A DNA stretch of 64,000 nt from Collinsella aerofaciens (GTDB lineage Bacteria > Actinomycetota > Coriobacteriia > Coriobacteriales > Coriobacteriaceae). The stretch covers positions 372,001 through 436,000 of the forward strand of contig NZ_CP084004.1 in NCBI RefSeq assembly GCF_020181355.1, read 5' to 3'. Shown here piece by piece: positions 5,243 through 7,896 of the stretch; within the stretch, counting starts at the first letter, position 1, and each line of letters opens with the position of its first letter. The notes below the pieces were generated by a model that was not told where the DNA came from, ran no database searches, and saw only the letters and a program-made list of their open reading frames with translations. Made by a program: the position numbers and the translations under genes.

Positions 5243-5356
5243 ACGAACAAAGCATACCCCAACAAGAGCGGGAAGACGGTAACAGTACAAGTAAGTAAAC
5301 GACTCATCCAAATAATTAGGAGAGTTCCGCCTAAAGGGCGACTACACAGGACCCCC

Positions 5357-5484
5357 GCCGGGCCGCTTTGGGTTACTTTCCAAAACATTTCCGCAGGACG
5401 CAAAGGGCTCCGCCGCGCGAAGCGCGCAGCGGAGCCCTTTGCATGTCCGAGGACGTTTTGGAAAGTAACCCAAAGCGGCCCGGC
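5357..5484 (-). repeat. Long 3'-end hairpin, family A, copy 1
   Basis: Outer arms 5357-5386 and 5455-5484 are perfect 30-bp inverted repeats. Inside them is a second stem, 5400-5413 with 5429-5442, continued by a CGCGC/GCGCG stem with a GAA loop. It begins 24 nt after the stop codon of the glycyl-radical gene (5508) and so sits at the 3' end of the pfl operon. There is no T-run, so classic intrinsic termination is not obvious. A homologous structure with different arms follows the aldolase gene (20133-20257). Confidence 0.85.
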
Positions 5485-5507
5485 GATCCTGCGGGAGTTG
5501 AGTCCCT

Positions 5508-5759
5508 TTAGAACTTGTCGTGGAAGGTACGCGCAATGACCTCGTCCTGCTGCTCCTTGGTGAGCGTGTGGAAGTTCACGGCGTAGCCGGAAACGCGGAT
5601 GGTCAGCTGCGGGTACTTCTCGGGGTGAGCCTGAGCGTCGAGCAGCGTCTCACGGTTGAAGACGTTGATGTTCAGGTGGTGGCCACCCTTCTCGGCGTAA
5701 GCGTCGAGCATGTGGACCAGGTTATCGGCCTGAGTCTCGGAAACTTCAGAAACCTTCAT
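5508..5759 (-). CDS. Separate glycyl-radical domain of pyruvate formate-lyase (GrcA-like)
   Basis: 83 residues that match the C-terminal end of pyruvate formate-lyase. The radical motif RVSGYAVNF is intact with the glycine at residue 58, preceded by the conserved stretch around [11 protein letters not shown] and PEKYPQLTI. The start at 5759 is supported by GGAG 7 nt upstream; a longer frame extends to 5804 but lacks a ribosome site. It lies 85 bp downstream of a pfl gene whose product stops just before this domain, so the two chains together make about 766 residues, the usual size of the whole enzyme. It must supply the catalytic radical after activation by a PFL-activating enzyme, which is not in the window. 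It resembles the E. coli spare part YfiD/GrcA, but here it seems to be obligatory rather than a repair subunit. Confidence 0.88.
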
Positions 5760-5782
5760 AATGTGTCTCCTTCGATTAATAG

Positions 5783-5842
5783 GCGCCGGCCGAAACCGGC
5801 GCACTAATCAGTAATCGTTATTGTTAGTATAGCACTAACAAT
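5783..5842 (-). promoter_or_regulatory. Two intercistronic hairpins between the two PFL genes
   Basis: GCGCCGG (5783-5789) pairs with CCGGCGC (5796-5802), and ATTGTTAGT (5820-5828) pairs with ACTAACAAT (5834-5842). They fill the gap between the stop codon of the PFL body and the ribosome site of the glycyl-radical gene. They could set different transcript levels for the two parts by partial termination or RNA processing. Confidence 0.6.
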
Positions 5843-5844
5843 AG

Positions 5845-7896
5845 TTACTCGCCCAGCTGATCAAGGTCGATATCGCCAAAGAACACCTGGTCCTCCTTGC
5901 CGAGCGCACTCGGGATGATGGAGAAGGTGTTGGAGATGCCGTCCTGAGCATCGCGGAACGGGAGCTTGGAAACCGAAGACAGCGAAGCGATGGCGCCGTG
6001 GCTATCGCGCTTGTGCATGGGGTTAGCACCCGGGGCGAACGGCTGGCCAGCCTTGCGGCCGTCGGGCGTGGAGCCGGTCTTCTTACCGTACACGACGTTG
6101 GAGGTAATGGTCAGAACCGAGGTCGTGGGCACGGAGTTGCGGTAGGTGTCGTTCATGCGGATGTACTCCATGAACTGGTGCACAACGTCGTGAGCGATCT
6201 GGTCGACGCGGTCGTCGTCGTTACCGTACTTGGGGAACTCGCCCTCGGTCTCGAAGTCGACGATGATGCCGTTCTCGTCACGGACAGGGTGGACCTTGGC
6301 GTACTTGATGGCGGACAGGGAGTCAGCCACGACGGAAAGGCCAGCGATGCCCGTAGCGAACCAGCGGTGCACGTGCTTGTCGTGCAGAGCCATCTGAATG
6401 CGCTCGTAGCAATACTTATCGTGCATGTAGTGAATGATGTTCAGAGAGTTGACGTACACGCCAGCGAGCCACTTCATCATGTCGTTGTACTTGGCCACAA
6501 CGTCGTCGTAATCGAGCGTATCGCCCTCGACGGCGCGATACTTGGGGCCGACCTGCTTCTTGGAGACCTCGTCAACACCGCCGTTGAGTGCGTAGAGCAG
6601 GCACTTGGCAAGGTTGGCGCGGGCGCCGAAGAACTGCATCTCCTTGCCGATGCGCATGGAGGACACGCAGCAGGCAATGCCGTAGTCGTCACCGTGATAG
6701 ACGCGCATGAGGTCGTCGTTCTCGTACTGGATCGAGGAGCTGGCGACGGAAGTCTTGGCGCAGAACTTCTTGAAGTTCTCGGGCAGACGGGTCGACCACA
6801 GAACGGTCATGTTGGGCTCGGGGCTGGTACCCATGTTCTCGAGCGTGTGCAGGTAGCGGTAGCTCATCTTAGTAACGAGCGTACGGCCGTCAACACCCAT
6901 GCCGCCGATGGACTCGGTGACCCACTGCGGATCGCCGGTGAACAGGGCCTGGTACTCGGGGGTACGGGCAAACTTGACCATGCGGAGCTTCATGATGAAG
7001 TGATCCACGAACTCCTGGATCTGCTCCTCAGTGAAGGTACCGTTGGCAAGGTCGCGCTCAGCGTAGATGTCGATGAACGTGGAGGTACGGCCGATGGACA
7101 TAGCGGCGCCGTTCTGCTCCTTAACGGCAGCGAGGTAGGCGAAGTACATCCACTGGATGGCCTCCTGCGTGTTGGTAGCAGGGTTGGAAATATCGAAACC
7201 ATAGGTCTCGGCCATCATCTTAAGCTCGCCGAGGGCGCGGATCTGCTCCTGCAGCTCCTCACGATCGCGGATGTTGTCGGCGGTCATGACCGTCGGGGTG
7301 GAAGCCTTCTGGGCCTCCTTGTCCTTGATCAGGTAGTCGACACCGTACAGGGCGACACGACGGTAGTCGCCGATGATGCGGCCGCGGCCATAGCCATCGG
7401 GCAGACCGGTGATGATGTGGGCCGAGCGGCAAGCACGCATCTCGGGGGTGTAAACATCGAAGACGCCGGCGTTATGGGTCTTGCGCTCGAAGGTGTAGCG
7501 CTCGACAACGTTCTCGTCGACCTTGTAGCCGTGCTGGCTGGCAGCCTGGCAAGCGATGCGGATACCACCGTTGACGTGCAGCGCGCGCTTGAGCGGCTTG
7601 TCGGTCTGGAGGCCGACGATGGTCTCCTTCTCGCGGTGGGCGTTATCGATGTAGCCAGCGGGGTGGCTCACGATACCCGTGACAGTCTTGGTGTCCATAT
7701 CGAGGACGCCGCCCTGCTCGCGCTCCTTGAGCAGCAGGTCGAGAACCTCGCCCCACAGCTCCTTGGTACGCTCGGTCGGACCGACGAGGAACGACTCGTC
7801 GCCCTCATAGGGGGTGTAGTTCTTCTGGATGAAGTCTCGGACGTCAACCTCTCCCGTCCAGATGCCTTCCTTGAAGCCTTCCCATGCCTCCTGCAT
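5845..7896 (-). CDS. pflB: Pyruvate formate-lyase, body lacking the glycyl-radical domain
   Basis: 683 residues that follow the E. coli enzyme from AWEGF and [18 protein letters not shown] at the N-terminus to SALGKEDQV at the end. The catalytic cysteine pair is Cys409-Cys410 in GIACCVSS. The chain stops where the ordinary enzyme (about 760 residues) continues into the glycyl-radical segment, which is encoded by the next gene (5508-5759). The enzyme converts pyruvate and CoA to acetyl-CoA and formate in anaerobic fermentation. The gap between the genes holds hairpins and a fresh ribosome site, so this is a real split and not a simple frameshift. The start ATG at 7896 has AGGAG at a rather long distance of 12 nt. 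No activase gene is nearby. Confidence 0.93.

Follow-up and report, generated by a model that had tools for sequence, protein, structure and literature searches.

The window under study, a stretch of 64,000 nucleotides of Collinsella aerofaciens DNA, carries on its minus strand two neighbouring genes, pflB and grcA3, between which the parts of a pyruvate formate-lyase (PFL) are divided (Table 1). The preliminary description, made from the letters alone, had proposed that PFL is encoded there in two separate genes, a 683-residue body and an 83-residue piece bearing the radical Gly58, separated by a gap of 85 nt with two hairpins and a new ribosome site, and both the anatomy of the genes and that of the gap were confirmed. 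In terms of folding, the stretch 5740-5870, which includes both hairpins, gives a z value of -2.81, matched by 3 of 200 shuffles, and the ribosome site reads AAGGAG.

Table 1. Features of the split PFL locus in the window, with coordinates of the distant radical genes found in other genomes
Feature	Position	Strand	Details
pflB body (PFL without the glycyl-radical segment)	5845..7896	-	ATG, TAA, 683 aa; TIGR01255, PF02901
grcA3, glycyl-radical subunit	5508..5759	-	ATG to stop, 83 aa; NF038360, PF01228
Active-site Cys409-Cys410 of the body	codons 6672-6667	-	invariant in 25 aligned rows
Radical Gly58 in RVSGY of the grcA3 product	codon 5588-5586	-	from alignment with E. coli PFL
Gap between body and grcA3	5760..5844	-	85 nt; two hairpins and ribosome site
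Hairpin cores in the gap	5821-5841 and 5783-5802		
Ribosome site AAGGAG	5767-5772	-	7 nt ahead of the grcA3 ATG
Extended -10-like TGCTATACT in the 85-nt gap			overlapping the first hairpin
Inverted repeat 3' of grcA3	5356..5485	.	perfect 31-nt arms, 68 nt apart
Distant radical gene and divergent Crp/Fnr-type regulator gene (Gastranaerophilales)	L255:5270-6282, L257:5116-6299, L258:5158-6375		

At the level of protein families, the body scores 1083.7 bits against TIGR01255 (cut-off 994.2) over model positions 1-665 of 744, and 716 bits against PF02901. As the TIGR01255 match stops at position 665, the glycyl-radical segment is absent from that chain, and the small protein covers model positions 663-743, so that the two pieces together make up an enzyme of normal length, in line with what had been claimed. 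The Pfam Gly_radical domain (PF01228) is itself divided, with positions 1-51 in the body and 50-105 in the small protein. The latter reaches 164.6 bits against NF038360 (GrcA3), above the cut-off of 158, and stays below the cut-offs of both TIGR04365 (GrcA/YfiD; 96.8 bits, cut-off 170) and NF008341 (GrcA2; 100.3 bits, cut-off 145). Residues 3-671 of the body align with residues 9-680 of the E. coli PFL, and residues 8-80 of the small protein with residues 679-756, Gly58 corresponding to E. coli Gly734 as counted on the alignment. The break falls at about E. coli residue 680, so that the last barrel strand, the radical loop with Gly734 and the final helix, as named in PMC8683613, all lie downstream of it. 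The body is identical (100%, 683 residues) to that of the C. aerofaciens contig NZ_OY725717, in which grcA3 likewise comes after pflB, and several other genomes of the genus have bodies about 100% identical to it.

A standard promoter scan found no promoter in the 85-nt gap of the window, and the promoter score of this gap was not significant (p = 0.23). Among other split loci, a TATAAT -10-like site, a possible promoter, was observed within the gap between body and radical gene in L067, L069, L071, L074, L075, L080 and L081. Downstream of grcA3, the perfect 31-nt inverted repeat encloses a GC-rich 20-nt inverted repeat and is possibly a transcript end; no other copy of its core was detected in the window when up to 3 mismatches were allowed.

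The genome containing the window (2.28 Mb, 99.94% complete) has a single PF02901 match, which is the split body, and three PF01228 matches, namely the two halves and one further protein that, by reading of its sequence, is probably the anaerobic ribonucleotide reductase NrdD. A complete PFL elsewhere in the genome, whose presence the preliminary description had left to be checked, was not found by the profile search. For the activating enzyme (pflA), one match over the cut-off was obtained in the genome, located some 7.3 kb downstream of grcA3 and 1.8 kb beyond the edge of the window.

Conservation and spread of the two halves

Both halves are present in 39 of the 43 genomes of the genus, which makes a sequencing or assembly error unlikely and, together with the own ribosome site of grcA3, upholds the earlier view that the gap is not a sequencing frameshift. 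The exceptions are G013, which holds an intact PFL of another clade and no standalone piece, G041, which lacks a PFL match at 99% completeness, and G035 and G032, which are 87% and 72% complete, respectively. Besides, stops lie between the halves in the sequences of G014 and G033, although the survey listed long open frames there.

In the order Coriobacteriales, a PFL match numbered on TIGR01255 (E up to 1e-100) was obtained in 132 of the 297 genomes surveyed, at 133 places, of which 28 are full-length and four partial (G373, G320, G329 and G032); the remaining 101, in as many genomes, end at model position 663-670, thereby providing the comparison of split points that had been suggested at the outset. 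With the GrcA3 model, a standalone piece was recovered in 103 of the same 297 genomes, 102 times over the cut-off and once, in G374, just below it. All 101 genomes with a split body possess this piece, versus none of the 27 that have only an intact PFL, these counts being uncorrected for kinship. G320 and G329 contain the piece together with a body matched only in part, and G232 is the sole genome of the survey in which an intact PFL and a split pair occur together, a case that counts against an obligate two-subunit enzyme. Given so strict a pairing with the split body, an optional spare part is not what would be expected. The proposal that the radical part is obligatory here, and not a spare of the GrcA type, is accordingly supported by this co-occurrence and by the single PFL of the genome.

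Another point raised by the preliminary description was the possible existence of intact single-gene copies in close relatives. In this context, 13 of the 28 intact PFLs of the order were placed on a tree and all of them belong to another clade, where they group with Prevotella and with five PFLs from the class of the split genome G390. The Collinsella genome G013 has an intact PFL that likewise groups with Prevotella and the five PFLs from that class, and its body is 61% identical; on account of this identity and of the separate clade, it was ruled out as a re-fusion of the split lineage.

The body motif ACCVS and the small-protein motif RVSGY are both retained in every one of the 117 split pairs examined, RVSGY occurring in none of the 117 split bodies. 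In comparisons with 12 chosen relatives, dN/dS amounts to 0.02-0.18 for the body in all 12 and to 0.11-0.28 for the radical piece in the 11 comparisons where it is defined, which indicates purifying selection on both genes.

Beyond the order, the body of PDB 38la served for a pattern scan of a collection of 84,980 species genomes, which returned 116 relatives, and a scripted analysis of the best 80 of these 116 gave 59 split loci, 17 fused ones and four without a radical segment in the locus, three of these four being situated where a contig ends. Among the 59, Prevotella histicola JCM 15637 (L200) has a PFL frame broken near the same region and is probably a frameshift giving a false split; it was left out of the split counts. 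L066 and further radical enzymes below 45-50% identity were dropped as well, as were L217 and L209. Split PFLs were found in Gastranaerophilales, in Ruminococcus and other Oscillospiraceae, in Lachnospiraceae including Lachnoclostridium phytofermentans KNHs2131, in an Acholeplasmatales MAG and in MAGs with odd labels. In 20 of these split genomes, a single TIGR01255 match (E up to 1e-60) was obtained in each, and this match is the split body. In a survey of the class around L. phytofermentans, comprising 341 genomes of which 180 have a match, all the PFLs among the matches listed reach model position 742-744, and the split G390 scores lower.

The origin of the split was approached with a tree of 92 bodies, corresponding to 50 of the 117 split bodies, 40 of the 47 fused ones (seven fused rows, the long-branch L201 included, being omitted) and two PDB bodies. 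On this tree, 49 split bodies lie on one side of a branch with an SH-aLRT of 99.8. The bodies of 38la, L172 and L193, which end in LGK-D/E, stand apart in the quick tree, which would need two changes. When all 52 split bodies were held together, the log-likelihood was 13.3 higher, with a p-AU of 0.768, and the data therefore favour, short of proof, a split that arose only once.

Finally, 92 of the 117 split bodies, and 50 of the 59 from Coriobacteriales, carry after the last LGK motif a C-terminal tail with C-x(0-2)-C (L068, L092 and L095 being examples), and no cysteine was found in the 46 fused junctions scored out of 47. This motif is absent from the group of the window itself, from eight split Ruminococcus loci and from the forms ending in LGK-D/E, and is thus not required. 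Where present, the Cys-rich tail is a candidate means of docking the radical subunit, and could take part either in this docking or in the protection of the subunit.

A probable two-chain enzyme and the fate of its radical subunit

Taken together, the anatomy of the locus, its status as sole PFL, the co-occurrence of the halves, the separate translation signals, the purifying selection and the spread to several phyla constitute the computed basis on which we consider it very probable that the two genes encode one obligate heteromeric PFL. In such an enzyme, the two chains would become active in trans. The body would carry the pyruvate/CoA barrel and the Cys-Cys pair, while the 83-aa protein would supply the last segment of the PFL fold, in which a strand and the glycyl-radical loop are followed by the C-terminal helix. 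Gly58 of the small subunit would receive its radical from the PFL-activating enzyme, and this radical would then act on Cys410 of the body.

A separate radical subunit might in addition, as the preliminary description suggested, let the cell replace the part cleaved by oxygen without remaking the body. On this basis, it can be tentatively proposed that split PFL represents a distinct enzyme type, with an exchangeable radical subunit, a reused body, a replacement pool under separate regulation and subunits supplied by viruses, a proposal that we find conceivable and are yet somewhat inclined to doubt; the replacement pool refers to the Crp/Fnr-linked extra copies of some Gastranaerophilales. 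The main alternative, which comes close to an even chance, accepts the obligate two-subunit enzyme but attributes it to neutral gene fission, the radical subunit being bound for life and never exchanged. Of the 118 loci with sequence available 3' of the body, 117 have the radical gene within the next 1.5 kb, the limit up to which it was looked for; this is consistent with neutral fission, as is the fact that no direct evidence of exchange was obtained.

Neutral fission is less easily reconciled with the distant radical genes found in 4 of 20 split genomes from outside Coriobacteriia. G380, G382 and G385 have a second standalone radical gene, either 98-115 kb distant or on a separate contig; in G399, the 9-kb contig of the body shows no radical gene, the sole standalone copy being on another contig. 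In G380, G382 and G399, the distant gene and a neighbouring regulator gene of the Crp/Fnr type, the product of which has cNMP-binding and Crp-type HTH domains, are arranged divergently; a ferritin gene lies near the one in L255, and the fourth distant radical gene adjoins a triosephosphate isomerase gene. Such extra copies are uncommon, since two radical copies were seen only in G382 among the 70 genomes of its order. A radical-domain match was obtained in nine of these 70, one with the full-length domain and eight with its second half only, three of the eight (G383 examined) lying in long open frames.

Viral contigs also speak against a subunit that is never exchanged. Twelve of them from IMG/VR (L241-L252) carry a GrcA3-like piece, 70-78% identical, which stands adjacent to a PFL body in three and without any body on the contig in nine, bearing in mind that the contigs may be fragments; the longest body-less one measures 230 kb, and one of the matches sits at the end of its contig. 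In L244 and L251, which probably stem from the same virus, the radical piece precedes the body. The PFL body of L244 (4240-6320), whose neighbours are a nucleotide-kinase-like gene and an NrdD gene, contains three in-frame TGA codons that are read as W under code 4, thereby suggesting a recoded phage. In a phage collection, a sequence match to the piece was obtained in 1538 of 50,697 records, 34 of which extend over at least 80% of the piece.

The promoter-like sites of some gaps point in the same direction. A promoter test, with many near-identical loci among the 46 considered, gave p < 0.05 in 10 of 46 gaps versus 4 of 46 coding controls, and median p values of 0.22 and 0.63, respectively, which is at most suggestive of an own promoter for the radical gene in some gaps. 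An exchange of the subunit after oxygen damage would fit both the distant radical genes beside Crp/Fnr-type regulators and the viral contigs with the radical half only. In view of the recurrence of the split in several phyla and on viral contigs, the piece looks obligatory and possibly exchangeable, and not spare.

A different kind of explanation is that the two halves are joined into one chain through a programmed frameshift, a bypass or a stop read-through, as the combined length, which is that of a normal PFL, would allow. This is very improbable with regard to the 104 split loci (of 117) retained after leaving out the 13 without an assigned start, several of the 59 Coriobacteriales loci being near-copies of the window. 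Their gaps range from 0 to 428 nt, the radical gene is in frame 0, 1 or 2 relative to the body in 38, 29 and 37 loci, respectively, and the body ends with TAA in 54, TAG in 47 and TGA in 3. A Shine-Dalgarno-like motif, according to a loose pattern, precedes the radical gene in 97 of the 104, and in 57 of the 58 Coriobacteriales loci with an assigned start. Moreover, many of the 38 frame-0 loci hold additional stops between the halves, and the location of the sole radical gene of G399 on another contig is equally at odds with a single chain. Gap length and frame vary in a way that disfavours recoding, which was rejected on these data and on those for stops and ribosome sites.

The RefSeq name of the small protein, 'autonomous glycyl radical cofactor GrcA3', would rather point to a spare part of the GrcA/YfiD type for an intact PFL encoded elsewhere. 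We give this reading hardly any credit and reject it for the Collinsella genome, where no intact PFL exists unless in the few missing bases; the piece is also missing from the 27 genomes whose sole PFL is intact, and G232 alone has both, which tells against it as well. As for a frameshift, an assembly error or a pseudogene, of which L200 is probably a real instance, its likelihood is negligible in the face of the conserved end point of the bodies in 101 genomes of the order, the purifying selection and the motifs kept in every split pair, on which grounds it was rejected.

Comparison with known systems

Anaerobes have in PFL a central enzyme of fermentation, which oxygen destroys by cleavage at the radical glycine. 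A radical glycine placed on its own small subunit offers a testable system for the docking, activation and replacement of a radical domain, matters that have been investigated using YfiD, the spare part of E. coli. The understanding of GrcA3 would shift from an optional spare to a required subunit, in which case both genes should be looked for before formate production is predicted from pflB. Split PFL also suggests a reason why viruses carry the small half, and, if the exchangeable-subunit reading is true, viral radical subunits would keep host bodies active. In this respect, the phage T4 protein Y06I is said to be a separate glycyl radical cofactor of PFL. Heteromeric glycyl radical enzymes in which small accessory subunits occur are represented by benzylsuccinate synthase and 4-hydroxyphenylacetate decarboxylase, in which the radical Gly is on the large subunit, in contrast to split PFL where it is on the small one.

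The GrcA3 family, the RefSeq name grcA3 and the PDB bodies 38la and 38lb without the segment are already known; what is added here is the role of the piece as a required part, the distribution of the split over several phyla with a single origin favoured, the Cys tail and the viral halves. A search of the open-licence literature, by title and start of abstract among the results listed and with subscription journals and preprints outside its scope, found no description of split PFL as two genes. The same small protein is covered by NCBIfam NF038360 (GrcA3) and annotated by RefSeq as grcA3 beside pflB in C. aerofaciens, but it is named there as an autonomous cofactor, and no statement was encountered that it completes a PFL lacking the segment.

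With regard to structures, 38la and 38lb, both named 'Formate acetyltransferase' in a 2026 copy of the PDB, are bodies only, for which no small radical chain of their own was found in the entries, a point against the two-subunit reading. The alignment of 38lb with an Atopobiaceae split body begins close to the start of 38lb and continues through the Cys tail to its final residue, and 38lb groups with the Atopobiaceae split family on the tree, which means that such bodies have already been solved by someone. 38la ends in LGKED without the radical segment, and could be a trimmed construct.

Fannyhessea (Atopobium) vaginae belongs to Atopobiaceae, and its PFL would be split judging from its grcA annotation and its family, some members of which have intact PFLs. 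A transcriptome study of this species (PMC11979175) places both grcA and pflB in its table of the ten genes most strongly downregulated, and in another study (PMC12208373) the PFL inhibitor hypophosphite, at 1 mM, lowers the formate output by about 90%. If the PFL of F. vaginae is indeed split, split PFL is active in cells. In Candidatus Mycoplasma girerdii, the small protein is called a replacement part in PMC5476646.

The E. coli PflB (PDB 1h16; TIGR01255) resembles split PFL in the alignment of the body, the Cys-Cys pair and the radical Gly, but it is one chain, while in Collinsella the last ~80 residues form a separate protein. GrcA/YfiD of E. coli (PDB 6owr) is, like GrcA3, a separate small radical-Gly protein that works with a PFL body, as described in PMC8683613 and PMC12338860. 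Nevertheless, YfiD rescues a PFL that was made whole, whereas the Collinsella GrcA3 has no whole PFL to rescue. The GrcA3 piece also measures 83 aa versus 127 aa for YfiD, although length draws no sharp line, since some radical pieces of Gastranaerophilales have 124-145 aa. According to PMC8683613, an E. coli body cut at residue 695 and combined with separate YfiD has, once activated, wild-type activity, thereby indicating that two-chain chemistry is possible. In the same study, and as a point against the two-chain reading, the 1-695 body displays no detectable YfiD binding, its glycyl radical is 32-fold lower than that of the 1-733 body, and binding or activation of YfiD is poor without body residues 696-733 or without its own first 60 residues. 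Given this poor binding of YfiD by the cut E. coli body, the split enzyme must have solved the docking of its radical subunit in another way.
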